Origin: Physcia stellaris
Taxonomy: Eukaryota > Ascomycota > Lecanoromycetes > Caliciales > Physciaceae
NCBI GenBank assembly: GCA_018902385.1
Contig: JABSSW010000007.1
Span: 806,001-870,000, forward strand
Direction of reading: 5' to 3'
DNA length: 64,000 bases
Shown: piece after piece, positions 3,679 through 56,021 of the stretch
Numbering within the stretch: position 1 is the stretch's first letter
Layout: each line of letters starts with the position of its first letter
Program-made: the position numbers and the translations under genes
Notes under the pieces: model-generated
What the model was told of the DNA's origin: nothing
Seen by the model: only the letters and a program-made list of their open reading frames with translations
The model's database searches: none

Positions 3679-3877
3679 TATTGAAAGATGTATGGGTGAC
3701 TACCATTCTATTGCTCTGAATCTCGTTATTCTAGGTAAGTTACATGCAGGTGAGAGCACAAGGAGTGTGCGAGTGCCAAGGCACTAGTCCCAACTAGGAC
3801 GCACTAGTCCTTCTTTCGTCAGGTTATACCAACTGGATCCTGACTGCAGCACACCTGCGGAGGCTGTATTTCCAACA
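3679..3877 (-). repeat. 5' LTR of the 489-3877 element
   Basis: This is the upstream LTR in element orientation, starting TGTTGGAAATAC and ending TTTCAATA. It is less mutated than the copy at 489-687. Confidence 0.85.
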
Positions 3878-4180: not shown

Positions 4181-4524
4181 CGACCTGCTGAACAGAAATG
4201 CTGATGCAGAAAAGACGCATGAAGACTCAATCGTCAGAAAAATTGCTCGAATCTTTTGCTCGTTATATTGCAGGCGACCGCTCATTGTTTTCCTCTTTCT
4301 GTTTCCCATTCTTCGAAACGTTTGTTTTCCCGCCCACCCGCTCCTGGGAGGTCGTTTCATGTACATATCAACTCCATAGCTCGACCGTGTTAGGTAGGGA
4401 AGTTAGCCGACGATGCTACTGCCCAGCAGAGCCCTTGTTGTGGATGTTTTCTTGCATAGGCGGTGCTCGCTGGCCGGGCCAACCACCAAAGTCTCTATAC
4501 AGAAGCCTTCAGGGGCATTAGCGC
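4181..4524 (+). repeat. Copy A of a diverged 340-bp duplication
   Basis: This segment recurs at 4824-5152 in the same orientation. Shared blocks include GCTGATGCAGAAAAGACGCA, ACATATCAACT(C/T)CATAG and a GC-rich block containing GCTGGCCGGGCCAACCACC. Identity is patchy, so the duplication is old. An LTR fragment lies between the copies. I recognise no coding function. Confidence 0.7.
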
Positions 4525-4823: not shown

Positions 4824-5152
4824 CGCCTGCTGGACAAGGGTGCTGATGCAGAAAAGACGCATATATGCCCAACCGTCAGAGAAACTATTCGAATCTTGTA
4901 CTAATTAGAATGCAGACGGTCGTTCATTAAGGTTTTTTGTTCTTCATTTTTCAGAAGTTTTGTTTCTTGTTCGTCCGTTCCTGGGGGTTATTTCATTCAC
5001 ATATCAACTTCATAGCCCGACCGCTAGATAGTCGGAGTTAATTGGCGATGCTACTGCTCAGCAGAGCCCTTGTGGGTGTTTTCTTGCATAGGCGATGCTC
5101 GCTGGCCGGGCCAACCACCAAAGTCTTCAGAGACATTAGCAACGCTCGAGAA
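4824..5152 (+). repeat. Copy B of the 340-bp duplication
   Basis: This is the partner of 4181-4524 in direct orientation. It keeps the same order of conserved blocks with several small gaps. Confidence 0.7.
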
Positions 5153-17956: not shown

Positions 17957-18708
17957 ATTTCCCGGGTGCAGAACGCTTGCAATTAGCGTGGAAAAAACGC
18001 TTGCGAATGCTTGGCATCCTCGTCCCGGGACCCCCTCCCAAAGTTGTATGATAGTAATCTGAGAGGAATTTTCAATTCATGTTTTAAAGATCTTTTCAAG
18101 TATACAAATCGTTGAAACCATAAATACTTCTGTATAGTCGTTTTTTGATGTTGTTTTATCGATTTTCCATCCAATGTCTCTCAAACAAGACTTGAAATTA
18201 ATCTTCAGATTTTGCGAAAAAACATGTTTGCAACATCAAGAAATAATTATACAGAAGTATTTATGGCTTCAACGAATTGTATGCTTGAAAAGATCGTTAA
18301 AACATCAACTGAAAATTTCTCTCAGATTACTATCATACAAATGGGGAGAGAAAATTTCGAGACGAGAATGTCAAACATTCGCAAGCGTTTTTTTCACGTT
18401 AAAATTGTTTGACACTCGTAGATCTTTTTTATTTCAACAGATTCAAGATTTTCAATCGATGTAACTCAACGTCAACATTATAATTTGTTATATAAACATT
18501 TTTGTTCGATAATGTGATCGATACATTGATAACATCGTAAATTTAATGTCGAATCATCAAATATTGATCGAGTTGAAAATTTGACATCGTCAAATGCCAG
18601 AATTTTTTCATTTCAGGGTTAGGTTTGACATGAAATCTTGGTGACGAACTCGGGATAAAAAAGATCTACGAGTGCCAAGCAATTGCAAGCGTTCTGCACA
18701 TGGGAAAT
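17957..18708. mobile_element. MITE, copy 1, carrying a second MITE
   Basis: The ends form an inverted repeat reading ATTTCCC then GTGCAGAACGCTTGCAATT inwards. The right arm continues GCTTGGCACTCGTAGATC. The left arm continues into the same TTTGACACTCGTAGATC only after an inner insertion (17985-18402). Without the insertion the element is about 330 bp, close to the second copy at 28.1 kb. No transposase is present. Right of it, 18699-18842 is an open frame that may be a host exon fragment. Confidence 0.7.
17985..18402. mobile_element. Foldback MITE inserted in the 17957-18708 MITE
   Basis: Two inverted arms of about 165 bp (17985-18150 and 18235-18402) surround about 85 bp. The arms read CGTG(G/A)AAAAAACGCTTGCG then AATG(C/T)TTG(G/A)CAT inwards. 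AATT lies at both borders (17981-17984 and 18403-18406), and skipping the insert with one AATT rejoins the outer terminal repeat almost perfectly. The arm motif CGCTTGC-AATG-TTGGCA also occurs in the outer element's ends, so the two families are probably related. Confidence 0.7.
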
Positions 18709-28118: not shown

Positions 28119-28464
28119 AACTTCCGATGTGCAGAACTCTTGCTAATGCTTGGCACTTGTAGATTCTTTTTCCTCCGACAGATTCAAAGTTTTCAATCGA
28201 TATAATTCAACGTCAACATTACATTATTTATTATTTGAATATATTTGTGTAATTATATGATTGATATAATGTTAACAACGTTCAATTCATGTTCAATAAC
28301 AACGTATTGATCGAACTGAAAAGATTTACTACTTCGTATCGTCAAATGTCAGTGTTTCAGAATTAGATTTGACATGCAATCTTGATGACGAACTCAAAAT
28401 CTTGTGAGATAAAGAAAATTTACGAGTATCAAACATTAAGAAGAGTTCTGCACATCGAAAACTT
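28119..28464. mobile_element. MITE, copy 2
   Basis: Inverted ends read CGATGTGCAGAACTCTT and run on to TTGGCACTTGTAGATTC or TTTGATACTCGTAAATT. The pentamer AACTT at both borders (28119-28123 and 28460-28464) may be the target duplication. The interior matches the copy at 17957-18708, including TTTTCAATCGAT and CAACGTCAACATTA. No coding capacity. Confidence 0.65.
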
Positions 28465-28901
28465 TGAATGAAATTATTTTAAATAATCATTCTCTCTAGA
28501 CGTTCGCTAAGCGACTAAGATACAATCATTTCAATCAGATTTTGTCACATCGACACACGAGCAAGATTGAGATCAGATTTTCTACAGCTACAGTGATTGC
28601 TTGATGTTTCTATTCGAAATAATACGCTTCAGACATTATTATCTCGACGATTTTTTCTTACAATGAAAAAAAAAAAGCGTTGTGCACAAATCAGCAAAAA
28701 AGCGCAACATATATGTACATTAATTTTTTTCTCATCTAAGACAAATTTCGACTTGATGTTCAAGTCAAGTCGATTGAGATATTTTTCGCTTAGATAGTTC
28801 ATCTCGTTCATCATTCAGTTCAATTCGTCGATCAGAATCTTTAGTATATCGTCGTTTTCTTTTCGTAGTTTGACATTCGTTAGCTTGACACATATTGATG
28901 A

Positions 28902-29055
28902 TGTTACAAATATGTAAAATGCAACGTGCTTATTATTCATGATAATATTATCTATCGTACATGTAATGAATGTGAATTATTGTACAGAATTTGCACGCTA
29001 ATTTATAACAGAATAACGTTTTGACATTGTTTTTAATGATGAATTTATTTCAACA
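28902..29055 (-). repeat. 3' LTR of copia element 1
   Basis: The 154-bp direct repeat partner of 33990-34143. It is more AT-shifted than its partner. Confidence 0.85.
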
Positions 29056-32000
29056 TTCTTTTTCGAATTTGCAAAAATATAAAATCATGATGTTTAATTC
29101 ATTTCGAGCATGTCGATAAATCGTTGATATTTGAACGAAAATAAAGATTTGATGAAATCGTCGATTGACATAATGTCGATCGTTATGTATTTAAATTCAA
29201 TACGATTTTTTTAATCTCGTTTTTTACATAATGATATACGATATCGACGTGCTTGATGCGATCATGATATATCGAATTCTTATTGAATGTTTTGACGTTT
29301 TGACTGTTCGTATTTATCAATATTTTAACGTAATTGTTCGATTGATTTTGAATTCGTAAATCAACGAATAATTGTTTAAATCAAATAATTTCTTTGACGA
29401 CGAATGATATGATCATATATTCGACGACGCAAATAAACGTGATCACGATGAATTAAAATTTTGATATTCAATTTATCGAGTCGTCGTTTAATAAAAACAG
29501 ATATGTTTCGATGAATTTTTTGAAAATTTTGTCACGAATTCAATTTGCATCGCAGTATGTTTCGATGTCTAATTTTTTGTTGAAATTATTGTCGTAAATC
29601 ATGCAAAAATCAATCGTGAAATTGAAATAAATTATAACACGTTTGATTGTTTTGATATGATTAAAATTGAAATTCTGAACAAATCGATTGATTATGAAAA
29701 TCGCATTCGTTACATTTGATTTGATTTCTATCATTGCAAATATGATTGAATTCATCATTGTTTGATATTGTTTGATATTTTGATCGATGATTTGATTAGC
29801 GTTGAAAATTGAATCAAATGATTTTTTCATGAGTGTTCGAATTGATTTCGCATTTTGTAAATCGAATTTTTTAACGACGCGTTGAATATATGTCTTTTGA
29901 TTAAAACGAATTATGTGCATTTCGCGATTTCTGAAAATGATCATATCAAGATAGAAATTTATTGACTCAAAATCAATCATATCGAAAGCGTTATTGAGTT
30001 TCGTTTTTGCTTTATTAATCATGATTTTATTGAAAACAATGATTTTGATATCATCGATTCATGTAATAATGATAAAATTTTTGAAATCAACATTCGTGAT
30101 GAATATGCTTTGATTCGCGTCGAAAAAATTGAAAACTAATTTTTGTAAAAAAATTCGAACAAACGTTTATATCATAGTTTGAATGATTGTTTTAAATCAT
30201 ACAATGTTTTGTTCAATTTGCAAATAGTTTTGTCATTGTCACATTCAATTGAATATTTAACGTAAATGTTTGAATCAATGAATTCGTATAAAAACGCAAT
30301 TTTCACGTTCATTTGTTCAATTTTCAAATTCAAAAAAACGACGACGACGAATAAAACTCGAAAAATCATTGATTTGACGACGAAAAAAAAAAAAAAAATC
30401 AAAATCAATATCGTATTGTTGTAGAAACTTTTTGACGCATCATTTAATTTTGTATCGTATTACAACGTCATCGACATTGCGTTTGAATTTGTAAACTCAT
30501 TTATCGTTCAACGATTTTTTCTCATCGAGCGTAAAATTTACTAGATTTCAAATGTGATTTTTCGATAAAAAATCGAGTTTTTTTCTCATTGTTTTTAATC
30601 ATTGTGAGAAATGAAAATTTCGTGCGACGTCGTTGTAGTTATTTGATTTTTTCTCGTCAATCGTCAACATTGTTATGAATTTTTCAAACGAAAAAACGTC
30701 GATGTTTTCGACGTAATCGATCAACAATGAAACGAAATTGATCGTATCAAATTCAGCGTCTGTAATTGAAATTGATTGAAAATCAGCAATGCTGTCGAAC
30801 AAAACAACTAAATCATTTGAACTTGAATTTCAATTCGCGAACAACTCACGCATTGCTAAATGAAACATCGTGAAACTGACAAAAATTATGACATTGTAAA
30901 CGATAAAATTCATAAAAAATTTATTCGAATTGTTTTTTTGTTTGAGCGCATTGTAACGTATTTTTGTAAAATTTTTTGAAAATTTTTTTGCTGTTGTGAC
31001 GTCATTGATTTTTGTATAATGATATTTGAAAATTTGATTTTGATATGTGATCGAATTTCAATGTTTTGAAAAATTTGAAATTGAATTTTTTGTTTTTTTT
31101 GCAATGAATTCAATGTGAATAACAAAAAAATTCATCATTGTTGAATCAATAATTGATTCGATAAAATTTTCATCGAATTCGATATCAATCTTTGATGTTG
31201 ATTTGTGATTATAAATATCGAAATTTTTGACGCGTTCGATTTTTGACTAATCGATATATAAATTCGATAAATGATGTCATCGTCATATTCGATGAAAAAT
31301 TTTTTTCGACATTCGATTTCAAATGATTTTTGATTTTTTTGTTGATGACGACGTAAACGATTGATTCGAATGAATACATGTTCGTCAATTTCGAAAATTG
31401 TTCGTAAATATTTTCGAACGATGATTGATTTTCAAAATACGAAATTGAACGTCGATTTTTGATATACGTCATTGCATGTGTGATGTTTGATCACAAAAAT
31501 TCGATATGTTTTTCGTCAATAACGTTGTTTTGATCATGATGATGAAAATACGTTGATGTGTTTCGATTACATCATTGACGTTCTGAACATTTGTTAAAAT
31601 TGAATTGAATTCAATGTTTTGATTGTCAAAATAATTGATTGATTACGTGTTGCGAAATTCGTTGTCATAATTTGTATATACGATTTTGACGTCAACATCG
31701 AATTGACGTTTGATTCAATTGATGTATTTGATAAAACATTGTAATCATTCGTGTTTGTTTTTGACGATGTATATTTTCGTTCAACGTGATTTGTCATCGA
31801 TGATATTGATGTAATAACGTTCATTTTCAAAATTTTCGATCGTTATTGATATTAAATCAATGTGAATAATATGAAACGTTTTTTCGACATGATGAATATT
31901 TTTTCTATTCGATTTTTTTTTTGTTTTGATTAATTTGCAAACATCGCAATGATTATTTTTGCAATCGTTTTGATAAAAATGATTCAATTTCTTTAAATAT

Positions 32001-33989
32001 TGACGTAATAAAAAGAAATTCATGTGATTCAAATTTCGATGTCATACGATAAACGACAATGATGATGTTGTTGACAATGCAATCATTTGATGTGATTGCG
32101 TTTTCAAAACGTATAATTCGTTGTTTTGCAAAAAAAAAAATTCGATTGATTTGTTTTGATGTTTGAAAATGTGATTTTCAATGTTTCAATAAACGTTTTG
32201 TTTTTCGAATGTTGATATTGACAGCAAATTTGTTGACGAGTTTGACATATAAAAAATTGACAAATCAATGAATTGATCATTTGCATTGTTGTAAAAAAAA
32301 ACGAGCAATAATTTAATTTTTTTTTCAACAATGAAACGAATTTTGTTTGCAATTACAACATGCTCGATGTGAAACATGAAAAAATGTATCAAATCTCGAT
32401 TTTTGTACACGTGAATGTTGATGTTCGAATTTGTGTATCACAACATATCGTTGATTGAATGATTAATGAACAAAATTTGTTTTCAAAATTCAATCAACGA
32501 CGTTGATTGTTATTGTGAATTTTGAATTTTTTCAAAATTTTGTCGTATGAATGATCAAACATGTTTTTATCAATTCATTTTTTGAAAGCGCTTTTTGAGT
32601 GATTATAGTAACATTTTTCAAAATCATGTTTGATGAAATCGTTGTTTATGCATTTTTGATTGATGCAAAAAAAATCGATATATTCAAATCTTGATATATT
32701 AAAACGAATACGTTTAAATTTTTCGAAACGATCAACGATCAATGCAATTGAGTTTGATTCTGCTATCGTATCGATAATGACTTTAACGAAATTCAGAAAA
32801 AAAATTTCGATTTCGATGAAATTTGTGTTTTCGAAAATTCATTCGTCACGTTAACGAATCACGAAATAATTGAAATAAATTAATTTGTGCATTTTGAATA
32901 ACAAGATATTTTGACAAAATACGTCGACAATGAATTTCGAATCAGCGTTTTCGATGATCAATTGATTGTGTAATGATTTAACGATTTTGATGTAAAATTC
33001 GACGTTCGTTAAAATAACAAATCGATCAATGAAATCGAAAATGATATCGACGAAAAAAACGAAAATATTTTTTTTGAAACGTTTTGCTATTTTTGTTCAA
33101 TAAATCAATGATGTTGAATTCGTTATGACAATGATAAAAAAACGATGATTGACGTTCATTGCATTGAACAAATAAAAAAAAATTTTATTCAAATTTCGTT
33201 CGTGTTTTTCGACGACGATGATGAAATTCGTGAATTTGATTTTCGTTTTTGCATCGATGAAATTTCAATCGATATTTTTGTTGTGTAAAAATTCGACGAT
33301 AAACATTGATTTTATTGATAAATTGATTGTTCATTCAACATGATTGATTCGAAAATCGTTTTTGACGTCGATTTTTCAATTGAAATATTGTTTTGATTTT
33401 GAAATGAAAACGACAAAACTGTAAATGATGTTTGACGTAATCATTGTGATATTTGAATTTGAAAATTTGAATCGTATAAATGAAAAAAAAAAAGAAATAA
33501 AACGTATGTGATTCGTGAAGTCGTGTAAAACGTGTGAATTTCATGTCGTATTTGTTTTTTTTTTCATTTCGTAACAAATGAATTCGAAACATCAATTCGA
33601 AACAATGACGAATTCATTGAATTATCGAATTGTGTATGTGAAATTTCGTGTTTTTGAAAACGTTTTTATCGAGATCGAGTGATCGATCGTGCGTTCGGAT
33701 TTGACGTTCGTTTGAACGATGAATGACGTTTTCATCGATCGACGTCGATGTTGATTTTTTGAATTTTTGAGAAACTAGATGACGATCGTTAAAATAAACA
33801 ATATGCATTCTATTGACGACACTAAATGACGATAAGCTCGTTGTGAACTCAGTTTGATGTTTTCGAGTTTGATCGTCGTTTAATCAATCAGAGATTTTTC
33901 GATCGATGCATGAAATCAACGTTTGAACGTTGTAAAATAATATGAATCGATTCGAATGATATTTGACAAACATTGTCGAGCTCATAATT

Positions 33990-46180: not shown

Positions 46181-46372
46181 TATTGAAAAGTACGATGACA
46201 AAAAATTGAAATATAAACACGAATAAAATCAAAATTTTTGATTGATCGATTAAACGAAACGTGTCAAAATCGATTATTATTAAAAACATTTGCGCAATCA
46301 AATTGTATTTATTTTTGTACGTAATTTCGATAATAATACAATGCAACGATAATCATTTACATTCGTTCAATA
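46181..46372 (+). repeat. 3' LTR of copia element 2
   Basis: Pairs with 39612-39807. It ends only 68 bp before the gypsy LTR. Confidence 0.85.
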
Positions 46373-46440
46373 CATACAATTTTTTCATCGATTCAAAAAC
46401 AAATTTTTTTAAAATACATCGTTCGTTTAAACAACATCGA

Positions 46441-46636
46441 TGTAATGAAACGAAATCGATCAAACGAACGTTAAAACGTTACGAATTTAATTGTCGCATT
46501 TCATGTTTATATATTCGAAATTTTACGAATTTTTTTCTGTTTTATAACAATTAGTTTTATTATGTGTTTAACATTTATTATAGCAATTCATATTATTATT
46601 CGCACATTTTAATTACGCAATATTTACATTTTTACA
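46441..46636 (+). repeat. 5' LTR of the gypsy element
   Basis: A 196-bp repeat starting TGTAATGAAACG, paired with 53696-53892. Confidence 0.85.
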
Positions 46637-49600
46637 ATTTTAATTGCTTTATATCAAAAATTGTTCGATTAAAAATGTTCAATTCAACAAATGCGTTTCG
46701 TCGTCGCGAAATTCGTTCGCAAATTCGTGATCGTGCGATCGTATCGATTGCATTACAATTAAACATTATTTCATCAAACAATTTTTTTATGTTTTTTTTT
46801 TTTATCAATCGAATTATTGAGTTGTTCGATGATGTTCAATTCGAAAATTTCGATAAAAACGATGATTTTGTCGATTTTGAAAATGTCGACGTTTCAATTA
46901 AACACATTTCAATTTTCGAATTTTTGATTTCAAATGTTGATCAATTTTTCAATTCAACATTTGTTACGCATTCTAATCAAAATGAAACACAACGAAAAAA
47001 CAATTTTGTTTCGTTGTCGTCAAATAGCGATATCGTTGTGTTTGTTGTTGTCGATTCAAACGTGATTTTCAAACAAATGAAAATGCGTATCAAAATGTTG
47101 AAAATTGAATCAAAATTCAATGATTTTAAAATATTTTGATCAAAACAAAAACGAAACGTGATCGAAATCGTCGTCGTCGTCGCAACAACGATAATTAATA
47201 TGAAAATTCGTTTTCGCATATCAAAAAACGAATCGCACGATCAAAAATTTCAAACACGCAAAAATGTGAAAATTGAAACAATTTGAAAAATTGATTGCGT
47301 GATTGCGAAAAATATATCGTTTTCGATTTTGTTAATTTTCAAACAAAAAAAATGAAAACAAATTGATCGACGTCGTTCTTGATAACGACAAAAAAAAATC
47401 AATGACGTAATTATGTTGATGTTCAATTTGAAAAACAAACATGAAAACAATATAAAAATTATTTGTTGACGTTGTTTAACAATTCGATGATTCGTGTCAT
47501 GAACACGACTATTGTCATTGAAAATGTCAAACAATTGTTTCAACAAAACATTGTTACGTTCAATCAATATTTAATTAAATTGTGAAACAAATTGAAACGT
47601 CACGTTTCGAACGAGAAACGACAAAAAAATTGTTAATTAAAGTTCATGTTTTCATTTGCATCAAATGTGTAAAAATACGAAATCATAAAATCGATTTTTA
47701 TTTCAAATTAGTCGTCAATTTGTTGATTGCGAAATAATTGTTTGTCAACGATAATACGTTAAATAAATCGTCGAACAATGTTACGAAAACAAAACAAAAT
47801 AGTGAAAATGATCAAAAAAATCACGAAAATGACAATGACGACGATAAAAATAAAAACAAAAAAAATTTCGCGTAACAGATTTGTTGAATTTGACAACGTT
47901 CAAAAAATAATCAAAATCAATTTTCGAAATCGCAACAAAATCAACAAAATGAAAAAAAAAAAAATAAAAATCGAAATCAAAATCACAATTTCGCATTTTC
48001 AGAATTCGAAAACGCACATGTTTTTCATGTCACAAATCGAATCACATAACAAATGATTTTGTGTGCGAAAATTATGCGCAAATTCAAAAAAAACGCAATC
48101 AAAATCAAAATCAATCGTCGAAAAAAAAACGAATTTGATGTTTGTCGTTAAAACATTGAAAATAAATTTAAAACGAAATAAATTTCGTGTTTTGATAATC
48201 ACGTTATCAATCAAAACATTTGTTATTCAAACAAACAATACAACAATTATTTGTTTGATTGATTTTAATGTCGAAACAAATTTTATATCACAAATTTTTG
48301 TCAAACAAATGCAATTGTTTGAATTCAAAAAAATTGCTAAACAACATGTAAAAATTGTTGACGATCGTGTGATTCAAATGTATAAACATCACGAAAACGT
48401 GCATATTATGACACGAAATAATGAAAAACATGTAAAAAAACAAAATATTAATTTTTGAGCGATTAACATGCGTGAATACGACATGATTTTTGAATATTTA
48501 TGATTAAATGTTGTCGATTTTGACATTCGTTGACATGATCGTCGCTGACTATATCGTGATGATAATTATGAAAAACTCAAACAGATTTCAATCAATTTCT
48601 GTTTTGCGAAGAAATTCGTTGATTTAATTATGATTGTCATTGCGAATCGCGATCGTGTTTATGTCGCAATATTATATCAAATGTTTTTCTTAACACAAAA
48701 TTATCAATATCGAAAACGAAATATTGCTCGTTGTGATGCGTTACAAGTGAATCGTAACGATCACATTTTTGATATTATCAAAAAATAATCGAAATATTTT
48801 TCAAAACGTTGTCGAACAATTTGAATACGCATGATCAAATCGAACATGTTATTGATTTGCAATCAAACAAAAAATCGCGTTTTGAATTTATATACAATAT
48901 GTCACATAACGAATTTATTGTTATACGCAATTATTTCGAAAACGCGTTGACGAAAAAATGAATTCGTTTTTTCAACGCATTTGCGAAAACATTTATGTTG
49001 TTTGTCAAGAAATCAAATGACAATTTGCGTTTATGTGTGAATTATCGAAAATTCAATGAAATCACGATTAAAAACAATTATTTATTGTCGTTATTGTTTG
49101 AAACGTTAAAACGTTTCGCGAATGCTAAACATTTCATCAAAATAAACATTCGAAATGCGTATCATAAAATTCGTATTCGTCAAAAAAATGAGTGAAAAAT
49201 TGCTTTTCGTATTCGTTATGAACAATACGAATATTAAATTATGTTTTTCGATTTTGTTAACGTTTTTGCTATTTTTCAATTTTATGTTAATGAAACATTA
49301 AAATCATACATTGACGTTTTTTGCGTGATGTATTTGAATGATGTGTTGATTTATTTCGAAAATAAACAACAACATTGAAAACATGTTCGTTTGATGTTTA
49401 AAACGTTGTTACGTTATCGTTTGTATGTCAAATTGAAAAATGCAAATTCAAAAAAAAAATCAATTTTTAAATTTCGTTGTTGAACGCAATAATATTCAAA
49501 TGAAACGTTCGCGTATAAACGCAATCGTCGATTGATTTGAATTCGAAAATGCGAAAAATATCATAATTTTTTTGAGTTTTGCTGAATTTTATAAACGTTT

Positions 49601-52600
49601 TGTTAAGAGATTTTCGCAAATCGTAACATCATTTACGAATTTGACGCGTGATGCGAAAAAAAAAAAAATCGTTTTTCATTTGTTATGACAAAGAAAATTA
49701 AAATTGCATTCAACGAATTTAAAATTAAATTTACGATTGTTTTTATTTTTACGCACTATGATTGAAAAACGAAATTACGTATGAAAATTGATGCTTTTGA
49801 TCGCGAAACAAATAATATGTTTAATAAAAAAAAACAAAAACGATCAATAATATTTCATTGCGTTTTTCAATTACAAATTCAAAAAAGCAAAAATTAATTG
49901 AAATACGCATGACAAAAAATTGTATGCGATAATGTTTGATTTTAAAAATTGAAAACATTATTTGCAAAATAACAAACATTTCATTCGCGTTATTTTTGAT
50001 CACAACAATTTTCGATATTTTATGACAATTAAAAAATTCAATGCGAAACAAATTCGTTGAATTGAAAAATTAATTGCGTTTGATTTCAATATAAAATATC
50101 GCAAAAACAAATTGAATTTTGCGAACGCGTCGTCGAAAAAATTTGATTTTATAAAATCGAACGATAACGACAAAAACAACGATAAATTTTTGTTTATTTT
50201 GCGAAACAAATTTCGCAATCAAAATTATCAATTTGATTTGCAAAACGATCAACGTGTGTTTGTTTTAATCAAATTTGCAACATCGACAACGCGATTGCGT
50301 AACATTGTTACAACAAATATTCGAAATATTGTTTCGAATGAAAAAATTCTCGATAGATGTGTTTGCAAAATTCTAAACATTGTCGCATTTCGACTTTTAA
50401 TTCATCAAATTATGAAGTCGAAAAAATTTTATTTGAAATTGCGAAAATCAATGATTGCGTGATTATTCAAACTACAACAAAAAAACGTTTTTGTTGTTGA
50501 AAAACAATGACGTCAAAAATACGCAAATAAACAAAACGAATTTTCGAAATGAAATGTTGAAAAAAATGAATTGTTTCGTCGTGATTTCGCAATTTATGTG
50601 TTTGAAAATTTCGTTACAAAACAAAAAATTCTTCGTATGAATCATGACGATTCAAATGTTGAACATTTTGCGCGAACAAAAATCGAAAATGTTGTGCGAC
50701 GCAAATATTTTTGATTTAACATAATTAAAAAAATAGTAAATTATGTACGCATTTGTTCAAATTGTTAACGAATGCGAATTCATCGACATAAATTTTATAA
50801 CGACATAACAATAATTTCATCAAATGAAAAACAATCATTTGATACAATTATCGCTTAATTTCATTACAAATATGTTTTTTGTTAAAAAATTTTATATTGA
50901 AAAAATTAGCGATTCGATATTAATATTGATAAATAAATTGACGAAATACGCAACGTATATAACAATCACAAAAACATTAAACGCGATAGATTTTGCGAAT
51001 TTGCTATAACGAAAATTCGTATATCGTCATGAAATAATGCGTAACATTATTTCGAATCGAAAATTTTTTTCAAAAACAATTTTTGATTTATTTTGTGTTG
51101 AAATTTGAAAACGAAACGTAAATTTAGCATTTTTTTCATTTACAAACAAATGAACAAACAAAAAAACAAAATGTTGTGTTCGAATATTATTTGCGTGTGT
51201 ATTGCAATTTCAAACAAAACAATTAATTAAAATTGCTATTCATGACACAATTTGTCTACAATAATAATAAACATTCAAACATTGATCAAATTTTTCAAAA
51301 ATTTGTTTGAATACGTTGCGACGTTAAACAACGATTTTGTGAACAATTTTCAAAAAGAAAAAACAACATTTGCAATAAACAAAACAAAAACGTTCGAAAC
51401 AATCGAGCGCATTTAATGAGATTGTAAAAAACGATTTTCGAATAACAAATAAAATATTAAAACAAAAATTATATGATGAAAAATTTAAAATAAAAAAAAA
51501 TGTTGTTACGTGATGTAAATAAACGCACATTACGTTTCAAAAAAAATCGATTATAAATAATTGAATTTTTTCGAATTTATCAAAAAAATAAATACGCAAA
51601 TTTACGAATTTGATTTGTTTAAACAATATGAATTCATACATTTTGTGTTTCATGTTTTTTTATTCGAATTTTGATATAATCGTGACGACGCAAATTCAAA
51701 ATCGCAATCAATATTAATGAAAAACGAAAAAAAAATGAAAAATATCGCAAATGCTAAACAAACGCATTAAAAAAAATCAATTTGAATATTTTATTGCATG
51801 AATAAATTTATCGTCATATAAAAATTCGTGAAAATCAATGAAACATTTCGAAAATTCGAAAAACGCAATTGTTAAATTCGAAAATGCGCGCGAATTACGC
51901 AAATTTAAAAAAATTGCGAAACGTCGAAAAACAAACAAATTCAAAACGAAATCGAACGAGAAATTTTCAACAAAAAAACAAACACGTCAATTTTTAAAAT
52001 TGAAAAAACGTGAACGATTCAAAAACAAAAATAACAATAATTGCGATGCAAAAGCACAAACAATAAAATGATATTGTGAATTGTTTTTGATTATATGCAC
52101 AATTTGCATACAACAAACAGACAACAAAACAACACGTTACAACAAAAAACAAAACTCAACATTCAACGAAAAAAACATAACAACAAACAGAATCATGCGA
52201 TCATTAAATCGAAAAAAACACGAAAATGTAAATCAACGCGTCAATAAATTCATCAATCAAAATTCATATTACAACAATCAAATCGATCTCGATTGCGTCA
52301 TGTTAATTGTCGTCACGTTTAATGAAATTTTGTTTATCATTGATTACGCGATTTTGTGAATCGAAATCGACGCAAAAATAAACGCGATAACAAACGAATT
52401 TGTTTACGATGCAAACGCAACGAAATCAACAAACGAAACAAACGCAAACGAAACGAAAACGAGAAAAATTAAAGAAAAACGACGCGAAAATCGAAAAACG
52501 AAACAAAAAAATTTCGAGTTTTTTTTTTTCGAGCAAAAGCAAAAACAAACGAAAAAAAAATGACAAACAAAATGATGTTTTTTTTTCAACGAATTTTGAC

Positions 52601-53695
52601 GTGACAATCAACGCAAATTTGCGAGAAAAATCTTGATAAAAACAACGAATTCTTTTTATGTCATTTTGTTTCATATTAATCACGTTATGCATCAAGAATC
52701 GTATGTCATTATTTTTTCAATATTGAAAATTCAATTTCAAATTGTCGTTATTTTTGACAACGAAAATGCGAACGTTGTTTTGCAATTTGTAAAAAACATT
52801 GTTTTTTTCACAATAATGAGAATTTTTGTTGCAAAGTTCGCATTTGTTTTGTTTGTTTTCGTTAAAAAAAAACGCAAACGTGTTTTGAATCAAAACGAAA
52901 TTTTCGAACGCAACGTTGACATCATATATGAATTGATTTTGTTACGCGTCAAACTGATATGAAACAACAATGTGTGTTTGTTTATTGAATTTGATTATAA
53001 TGCGATCGCGAACATCGCGATTCGAATACATATTTGTCGTATTGATTGTATTCAACAATTTGAACGTAAAAAATTTATCAATTTAATACGCGTCAACAAC
53101 GTCATCGTTATTTACAATATATTTACAACAGAAACAGCAAATTGCGTGTTTTTGCGAAACGTAACAAACAACGAAAAAAAAAAAAATGAAATCATGATTT
53201 ATTGTATCGTTAACACACGCATTGCATTGTCGACGTTCGAAAATCAATTTCGTCGTCATTGAAATATCATTGCGACAACATTATCATTTGCAAAAACGAT
53301 GTGATAATTGTACAAACAACGATATATCATGTTGACATCATTGTCGCAATAATTGTTGTTATCGCAAAAACAAAAAAAATCAAATGAAATATTTATCATG
53401 TTATGAAATAAAAATGCTAAAAAAGAAAATTCAAAAAGTGAATTGAAAAATTGAAATAAACATTCATCAACACACGACGCGATTCATTTCGATTCGATTT
53501 CACAACACGAACGCGATATTTGAAATTGCATTACATTGTTATTGCTATTTCTATTTATTGAATTACAATGTTTCAAAATTACACGTCGAAAACACAAAAC
53601 TATTTACAAAACAACGTTGTTGCGATACATTTCTGATATGCTATAAAAACATTGATAGTTGACGCGAAAAATCGATCATTCAAGAAAAAAACAAT

Positions 53696-53892
53696 TGTAA
53701 TGAAACGAAATCGATCAAACGAACGTTAAAACGTTGTGAATCTAATTGTCGCATTTCGTGTTTATATATTCGAAATTTCACGATTTTTTTTTTGTTTTTT
53801 TAGCAATTAGTTCTATTATGTGTTTAACATTTATTATAACAAATTATATTATTATTCGCACATTTTAGTCACGCAATGTTTACATTTTTACA
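53696..53892 (+). repeat. 3' LTR of the gypsy element
   Basis: A 197-bp partner of 46441-46636, followed directly by the target duplication ATCGA. Confidence 0.85.
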
Positions 53893-55401
53893 ATCGACAT
53901 GTCATTCAAAATCAAAATGATTAAAAATGTTGCAAATCATTTGTTCAAATTCGCAAATTCATTCAATTCGAAATTTCGACGCGTATTTCGAAATTGAATT
54001 ATTCGTTTTGTTGATCGATATGACGTTTTCAAAAAAAAACAAAAATCATTGAATGTTGTTCGTAAAGCGATTGAAAAATTGAAACAATTGAAACAACATT
54101 TTATTCGATTTCAACGCGTTTGCAAAAAACGAAATATCAAATTTCTCAATTTATACAATATGAATGAAATTGACTTTCGTGTGAATTACGACACGAATCA
54201 TTGAATATTGACGTTGAATAAATTGTTTTTTCAAACGTTCAACGATGCAAATAATCGAAAATCGATTATTTCAATCGAATGTATCAATGCGATAAATTTT
54301 TCAATATTTTTTTATTTCATAGTTTTCGATATCGAGATTCAAAAGCGTTGATTTCAACAAAACAAAATCGTGAACGATATGCGAATAAACGTATTTGATA
54401 CAAATTATTCGAACGACGATATAACATTGAAATGATTACAACATTTCGATCGTTATACAAAATCTGTTCAAAAAAAAACTTGACGTTTGTTCATAATGAA
54501 TGATCACGATTTTCACATGATTTGAAAATTTTTGAATTATGTTTTGATTCATCGTATTGAATTATTCGACTTTTTTGTTCACAATACGCATTTTATTCAA
54601 TCGTTGAATGTGAATGTGTTTCAATTTTTCAAATATTATCACAAAAATATCGTGAATTTGATCATGAAATATGAATGTGATACTTTCACGAAAATGAACT
54701 TTTTTTTCGATTTTTTTCGCATACACGATTTCACGTTTACGAAACTCACGATAATTCACGTTTGAAAAAAAGCAAATTTTGTATCATACAATTCAAATCA
54801 TGTTTTTGTTTCGATTCGTGCTCGAATAACGAAAAATCGAAAAAAATTAACGTCGTCATCGTCAATTATTTCGTTGAATGTCAAAATTTTTCGTGAAATT
54901 CAAAAAATGATTGAAAAATTTCAACAATTCAACGCAACAATTCGAATCAATGAATTATTGACTTTTAATACAAAACGCATTTATTTGCAATACGTCAAAA
55001 ATTCGAAAATTTGCGTTCATTTTCGAAAATTTTCGAAACAAAAATTGTTCGAAACAAAAATTTATCAATTGATCAAAAATTTACGCAATTTTCAATTCAA
55101 AAAAATTGTACAAAAACACGATTCTGTATTTTTTGACATGATACGTGCTCAGAAACAACGACGAAAAAAATTTGAACTTGAAAAAACGAAAAAAAAAATC
55201 AAACGAAACGAAATCGCTTTGAAACGAAAACGAGTAATTTTCGAAAAAAAACGTTTTAAATCATGAGCTTTGATGTTTATTGAACTTAAAAAAACTCATA
55301 AAACTTATAGTAAACGTGTAATCCTCGAAAGAAAATCTAAAAATGTATATAAGCGTTGTATGATGATCATACGAAAAAAAAAATTAATTAATGTAATAAC
55401 G

Positions 55402-55466
55402 AACGTCAACTAGAGACGAACGTCAGGTGGAACGCACTAAGAGTCTCGCGATTAGTGCAGCACGAT
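55402..55466 (-). repeat. Right terminal inverted repeat of the Fot1 element
   Basis: Read on the minus strand it begins ATCGTGCTGCACTAATCGCG. It is almost unmutated and marks the edge between AT-rich and normal sequence. Confidence 0.88.
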
Positions 55467-56021
55467 TAGGCTCAGCGTCGATCCTTGCTGTTTCAAAGAA
55501 AATTCGCAAGCGAGCTGAAGTCGAACGTTGATTGGGGAAGTCGCCCGTTGAGTCATCTTCGAAGATGCTGTCAATGGTATAACGCGATGACATTTCATTT
55601 TAGTAAAGAGGCGAGAAAGACATCGTTTTTGCTTGAGAGAATCGTAAGATCAGGGTCTTGATACGCTAAAGGACGTCATCAACCATACCATACCCCCATA
55701 CACACTAAACAATCTTCAACCCTAAAGTAGGTAATGTGAAGATACCAGATAATAATTAGAATACTCATCTTCTCTAGACTACCGAGGATGGGTGATTCGT
55801 TCTCAAGTCGCAGAGCCGAAGATTAAAGCCTTTAAAGACTAGATCACAGAGGTCCAAGACTAGTAAAAGAGCCTTTAAATTTGAGAGGATCATAGAAGGG
55901 AAGCGTGGAATACTACGCCCAACACCAACCACACTTCCTCTCAGTAGAAGTGTACCTATTTTAGCACCGCCGACGCTCCTTATCTATCGCTATATGAGAA
56001 GCCAGCCACTATCTCCCCTTT
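55467..56021. other. Intergenic, no gene recognised
   Basis: Normal composition returns here. There are no supported frames. Confidence 0.5.

Follow-up and report, generated by a model that had tools for sequence, protein, structure and literature searches.

Repeats of the lichen-forming fungus Physcia stellaris are probably subject to repeat-induced point mutation directed at CpC and CpT

We analysed a stretch of 64,000 nucleotides (the window, C7:806001-870000; contigs are labelled C plus a number, and coordinates without a prefix are window positions) from Physcia stellaris, a lichen-forming fungus (Lecanoromycetes, Caliciales, Physciaceae), together with its genome of 43,974,083 bases in 147 contigs. 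Repeats of this genome carry C-to-T changes on both strands at cytosines followed by a pyrimidine (CpY). CpC is changed before CpT, and the changed copies are spread across many contigs. These changes are probably the trace of repeat-induced point mutation (RIP) with an inverted preference, CpC > CpT >> CpA, CpG. RIP is triggered by duplication and acts in haploid nuclei before meiosis. In P. stellaris, it would act on repeats, namely on retrotransposons and at least one duplicated host gene, mutating both strands wherever a pyrimidine follows C. CpC would be mutated first, nearly to exhaustion, and CpT next, with C before A or G largely spared. Duplication would serve as the trigger and the sexual cycle as the time, as in RIP, and the target would be read by a RID-type enzyme, either RIDa, typical of Lecanoromycetes, or the divergent RIDb. 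An earlier note on this stretch had proposed a CpY target with CpA and CpG spared; a CpY target with CpA and CpG nearly spared recurs in four further alignments from many contigs and in AT-rich windows sampled elsewhere.

Mutation contexts were counted in multi-copy alignments. Pairs of long terminal repeats (LTRs) within the window were set aside, as their ends were misaligned beyond the repeats. We fetched 12 of the 137 listed matches to RVT_2 (Copia reverse transcriptase) and 8 of the 150 listed matches to RVT_1. The direction of change follows from a comparison of an unmutated RVT_1 copy, L077, with three mutated ones; L078, with an identity of 66%, and L079, which gave no long alignment, were not used, and L075 and L076 belong to a different unmutated family. 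Relative to L077, 154 of 159 CpC and 150 of 180 CpT are changed, as are 9 of 198 CpA and 8 of 174 CpG. Reverse changes amount to 5/345 for A-to-G and 11/372 for T-to-C. The two strands behave alike (CpC 63/63 and 91/96; CpT 72/81 and 78/99).

The LTR alignment is based on 42 matches, two of which, short fragments, were left out (40 rows, 38 distinct). In columns with C retained by four or more copies, the changed cells are 263/376 for CpC, 248/603 for CpT, 47/1020 for CpA and 38/339 for CpG. All CpC sites (10/10) and all CpT sites (16/16) vary, as do 15 of 27 CpA and 4 of 9 CpG sites. A single column accounts for 33 of the 38 changed CpG cells, and another for 12 of the 47 CpA cells; the ancestral state assumed there may be wrong. 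In nine Copia reverse transcriptase copies of one family CC and GG are absent without exception, and the loss of CT is graded between copies. Where C survives in at least two of these copies, T is found in 217/333 CpT, 85/928 CpA and 47/706 CpG cells. The family alignments that the earlier note had called for thus give CpC, followed by CpT, as the main mutated contexts, and CpA is not the main one.

The order of the changes is seen in windows of 300 bases from the window and the sampled stretches. The density of CT+AG is 17 per kb where CC+GG is zero, 94 where CC+GG is 10-30 per kb and 133 where it is 90-150; only one of the 89 windows with fewer than 40 CT+AG per kb retains at least 10 CC+GG per kb. 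Therefore CpC is mutated before CpT. In a rate model on a coarse grid, in which the Neurospora-like rates are illustrative values only, the best fit is obtained with rates of 1 for CpC, 0.9 for CpT, 0.05 for CpA and 0 for CpG.

Two processes based on methylation have to be considered here. Methylation induced premeiotically (MIP) leaves duplicated DNA methylated without sequence change. It was rejected, as in the comparison with L077 the sequence itself is changed. The other is slow decay, in which heterochromatic repeats would be methylated at CpC and CpT by a DIM-2-like or RID-type enzyme, as in the first step of MIP, and the methylcytosines would deaminate spontaneously over many generations. 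The CpC-before-CpT gradient fits a difference in rates as well as it fits repeated rounds of RIP, and Neurospora DIM-2 methylates mostly non-CG cytosines with a preference for CpT (PMC13297926; this and most other papers are cited here from excerpts). However, 97% of CpC changed against 1-3% reverse changes would require a very high relative rate, and all nine Copia copies have lost every CpC. We consider slow decay unlikely.

The window contains two AT-rich blocks. The earlier note had described both as nearly devoid of CC, CT, GG and AG, with many CA, TG and CG retained, and counts compared with expectations from base composition agree. Block 1 (28950-33900) contains 1 CC+GG (185 expected), 97 CT+AG (483), 687 CA+TG (494) and 276 CG (88). 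In the 16.1 kb of block 2 (39200-55300) the corresponding counts are 1 (542 expected), 198 (1541), 2109 (1551) and 933 (270). The two segments singled out earlier indeed lack CC, CT, GG and AG altogether and contain five CG (33241-33300) and four CG (47281-47340). With the gene-like DNA of the window set to 1, the densities in the blocks are 0.001 for CC, 0.107 for CT, 0.995 for CA, 1.098 for CG and 1.17 for TA. Since the per-kb densities of CA and CG match those of the gene-like parts, these dinucleotides were kept rather than newly made. With both strands summed, the blocks contain no ACC, CCC or GCC and two TCC, and CT after A, G or T retains 10-18% of its gene-like density; therefore the target is set by the 3' neighbour, with hardly any influence of the 5' one. 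A simulated full CpY change of the gene-like DNA of the window reduces its dinucleotide distance to the blocks from 0.582 to 0.092, whereas a full CpA change increases it to 0.727. The full CpY change ends at 24% GC; the blocks have 26%. The features of the blocks are as follows.

28260..28949, no strand: lightly mutated left shoulder of block 1, with CC+GG 0 in each 60-base bin of 28260-29160 and CT+AG mostly 5-10 per bin to about 28850
28902..29055, plus strand: left LTR-like direct repeat of a Copia-like element, 89% identical to 33990-34143, among the 40 aligned LTR copies
28950..33900, no strand: core of AT-rich block 1, CpY-mutated by its dinucleotide counts
29543..30058, minus strand: open frame with similarity to RVT_2 (Pfam RVT_2, E 1.6e-8), also found in the genome search (C7:835828-836381)
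33990..34143, plus strand: right LTR-like direct repeat, less mutated, partner of 28902-29055; CC returns from about 34080
39200..55300, no strand: core of AT-rich block 2, CpY-mutated by its dinucleotide counts
39333..39406, plus strand: left terminal inverted repeat, mutated copy, pairing with 55395-55468
39614..39810 and 46183..46375, both plus strand: pair of LTR-like direct repeats, 92% identical
46441..46686 and 53696..53939, both plus strand: pair of LTR-like direct repeats, 86% identical
49007..49435, plus strand: disrupted reverse transcriptase domain (RVT_1) within block 2, from the genome search (C7:855007-855435), with two TGA and one TAA inside
55395..55468, minus strand: right terminal inverted repeat, less mutated copy, pairing with 39333-39406

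The RVT_2-like frame encodes no proline, glycine or tryptophan. The terminal inverted repeats align over 74 columns with 12 differences. In nine of these, outside the ragged ends, a C that precedes C or T has become T, or the complementary change is seen, as the earlier note had stated; the remaining three sit in the ragged outer seven columns. The block edges are sharp in 60-base bins, and in block 2 CC vanishes from about 38880 and reappears at about 55320. The range given in the earlier note, 28480..55466, is more than a single unit, as the DNA between the two mutated blocks, at about 34150-38880, is ordinary and gene-like. A long, unmutated open reading frame (ORF) of 604 amino acids lies there on the minus strand (35062-36876). 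A related repeat occurs in several copies at 17983-18707 and 28147-28461 (one pair inverted, 77%). It has lost CC in part, and was apparently caught early in the same mutation. Short repeats of about 200-310 bases at 489-687, 3679-3877, 4184-4494 and 4826-5126 retain 50-116 CC+GG per kb and are depleted little or not at all, which would fit a length threshold like that of RIP.

Outside the window, we took 40 stretches from fixed positions, half of them 10 kb and half 2 kb long, a small set that yields 480 windows of 500 bases. GC below 0.32 is found in 19 windows from three stretches. Compared with windows of GC at least 0.40, their densities are 0.011 for CC, 0.20 for CT, 0.90 for CA and 1.02 for CG, so the AT-rich DNA sampled elsewhere has likewise lost most of its CC and CT. 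The listed LTR and reverse transcriptase matches come from dozens of contigs.

The RIPper rule (product >1.1, substrate <0.75, composite >0; PMC6714961) applied to windows of 1 kb calls none of the 54 low-GC windows and none of the 453 others positive. The means in the low-GC windows are 0.45 for the product index (TpA/ApT) and 1.44 for the substrate index, and the low TpA-based indices predicted earlier are thus observed. TA/AT is 0.42 in the blocks against 0.69 in genes, so that by this measure the blocks resemble RIP even less than genes. Heavily mutated DNA of this kind escapes the published indices; therefore the claimed CpA preference shared by RIP-like defences (PMC12543289) may be partly an effect of the method. 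Classical CpA-directed RIP, disguised by a misleading composition, could be expected in an ascomycete genome with RID/Masc1-like genes. However, it is refuted for the examined copies by the counts relative to L077 (9/198 CpA against 154/159 CpC), the CA density is kept (0.995), and the indices are negative in 54 of 54 windows; we give it almost no chance. Most likely, the process works like RIP, yet is not RIP of the CpA type. Judging from the sequences, the specificity of a methyltransferase or deaminase may have changed.

Broken transposons contain the stop codons that such a rule would leave. In four intact transposon frames a simulated full CpY change creates only TGA stops, one per tryptophan codon (2, 1, 5 and 4), and a full CpA change creates only TAA and TAG. 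The former gives 12 stops and 275 amino acid changes, the latter 42 stops and 178 changes. We summed by hand the stops in the listed profile matches, for which 150 of 165 RVT_2 and 150 of 527 RVT_1 candidates had been scored. The TGA/TAA/TAG counts are 401/101/3 for RVT_2 (stops in 133 of 137 rows), 250/33/3 for RVT_1 (140 of 150) and 44/3/0 for DDE_1 (9 of 10). The majority of TGA fits the CpY rule, because TGA is the sole stop that this rule can create. The 10 DDE_1 matches in the genome listing all fall outside the window, so Fot1, the name that the earlier note gave to the terminal inverted repeats, is putative.

Mutation is not confined to transposons. A genome search with the second RID-like protein, RIDb, identified a broken copy on C41 (L109, C41:13800-16200). 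It is a duplicate of the RIDb gene and its upstream flank, destroyed by the CpY rule; the intact gene is L001 (C6:790057-794028). In 923 columns retained after a local alignment filter, 88 of 99 CpC, 76 of 131 CpT, 21 of 120 CpA and 26 of 82 CpG are changed, and the reverse changes are 15/228 (T-to-C) and 7/250 (A-to-G). Duplication is favoured as the trigger because this mutated duplicate is no transposon. C19 carries a further fragment (L110).

The host gene also bears on an APOBEC-like single-strand cytosine deaminase editing the cDNA of retroelements. Some APOBEC3 enzymes prefer CC, which counts for this explanation; editing of the APOBEC type affects one strand, in a context set by the 5' neighbour. 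However, in P. stellaris the strands are mutated equally, the 3' neighbour decides, and the duplicated host gene and the inverted-repeat pair are mutated as well. Such a deaminase is thus very improbable. A search of the genome with the APOBEC_N profile gave no matches, and the positive control was also silent, so absence is not shown.

Several observations weigh against RIP directed at CpY. The sparing of other contexts, complete in the earlier note, is seen in the four alignments but is incomplete: in the host-gene duplicate, the most diverged pair, both the CpA (21/120) and the CpG (26/82) changes exceed the background of reverse changes. The parent RIDb gene is unmutated. RIP normally hits both copies of a duplication, and would fit an unmutated parent only if selection or outcrossing has preserved it. 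Not every repeat is hit: the Gypsy reverse transcriptase copies L075 (C5:1166521-1166997) and L076 (C12:60312-60788) are 96.6% identical and both unmutated, with 51 and 53 CC+GG, no stops and no CpY loss. These are repeats that have so far escaped. Finally, TAA is not rare among the RVT_2 stops (101/505). It may come from TAG via AG-to-AA, from rare CpA changes or from frame drift.

Genes for candidate enzymes are present. The profile PF00145 identified three loci, on C3, C5 and C6, which appear to encode one DIM-2-like and two RID/Masc1-like methyltransferases, the kind of genes that the earlier note had proposed to look for. The C3 gene has DNA_methylase and DUF7893 domains and a BAH match below the cut-off; from this layout, not from a named match, we take it to be DIM-2-like. 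The C5 and C6 genes are presumably RID/Masc1 genes, a label given by motifs and not by a named match. RIDa (C5) is a 99% match to P. stellaris G7Y79_00005g016670 and clusters with Lecanoromycete relatives. RIDb (C6) is 67% identical to a Heterodermia protein over nearly its entire length, and its two in-frame TGA fall in introns, as judged by eye. In a tree of 24 rows (nine of 33 were left out for a missing motif pattern), RIDb, the Heterodermia protein and two other relatives form a clade with 100/100 support, whose stem measures 1.05 changes per column; the second Haloplaca and Lecanora copies fall outside it. By this tree, RIDb is a candidate divergent second RID-type enzyme common to Physcia and Heterodermia.

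The RIP of Neurospora crassa shares with P. stellaris the C-to-T changes on both strands of repeats, the AT-rich transposon graveyards and the presence of genes for RID-type and DIM-2-type enzymes. However, its preference is CpA > CpT > CpG > CpC (PMC5496416), whereas in P. stellaris CpC precedes CpT, and CpA and CpG are near background in transposons. In Trichoderma reesei, repeat-directed C-to-T mutation affects CpA and CpG above CpT and CpC, which is nearly the complement of the Physcia rule (PMC5496416). Transposons of Botrytis, Sclerotinia and Magnaporthe, which have a RID/Masc1 gene, share CpT as a C-to-T context, but there it accompanies CpA and the excerpts give no CpC signature (PMC4352252); in P. 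stellaris CpC leads and CpA is spared. Microbotryum transposons also show context-directed C-to-T changes, but at CpG, which is spared here (PMC4352252, PMC2621366). In the Lecanoromycete Cladonia rangiformis, transposon blocks are strongly mutated, and homologs of RID and DIM-2 are present (PMC12542154). Its mutated windows peak near 16% GC, against 26% in the Physcia blocks and a CpY floor of 24%, which suggests targets wider than CpY.

CpT signatures alongside CpA were thus known (PMC4352252, PMC2621366), and one study that applied alignment-based tests to control fungi capable of RIP even described CpT as dominant (PMC7882544). A kingdom-wide k-mer survey reported a shared CpA preference; by the excerpts, its 130 strong species belong to four classes, which do not include Lecanoromycetes (PMC12543289). 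Our literature search, based on excerpts, found no signature led by CpC and sparing CpA; an earlier mention is possible in the principal older survey of mutation contexts, Clutterbuck 2011. The available text of the P. stellaris genome paper (PMC7513301) has no match for 'transpos' or 'methyl'.

Traces of the same rule may be present in public protein collections. The query was an open frame from a mutated reverse transcriptase that lacks proline, glycine and tryptophan; such a query favours similar relatives. Proline and glycine are absent from 85 of the 109 relatives (17,914 residues, 43 clusters at 80% identity) and exceed 5% in nine. Such frames come from DNA without CC and GG, because CCN and GGN codons need them. 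Tryptophan, whose codon TGG contains GG, is nevertheless found in 35 of the 85 (P0243 and 34 others); most simply, gene callers would have read TGA as tryptophan in CpY-mutated repeats. As CpY change empties frames of proline and glycine, mutated repeats can pass as genes in metagenome gene calling, and could be mistaken for an organism using code 4 (TGA = tryptophan). The LTR pattern had no matches in viral contigs, and a search with the reverse transcriptase alignment gave 178 pattern stretches in genome contigs and 29 in viral contigs, with no confirmed relative among them. An artefact of assembly or base calling might be suspected, since the published assembly is a hybrid of nanopore and Illumina data (PMC7513301). 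However, a single CC+GG in 16.1 kb where 542 would be expected, the graded loss of CT between copies and the 85 public relatives, though some may be Physcia's own, make it hardly conceivable.

Purified RID has no detectable activity in vitro (PMC13297926). How RIP reads dinucleotides is unsettled, and a species with a nearly opposite preference and two RID-type genes offers a natural comparison for enzyme swaps. We suggest tentatively that in Physcia, and perhaps in Physciaceae, RIP might mirror the Neurospora target, with the preference set by a fast-evolving RIDb, and that cryptic RIP of this kind might be widespread in lichen fungi, missed by surveys based on TpA and CpA indices.

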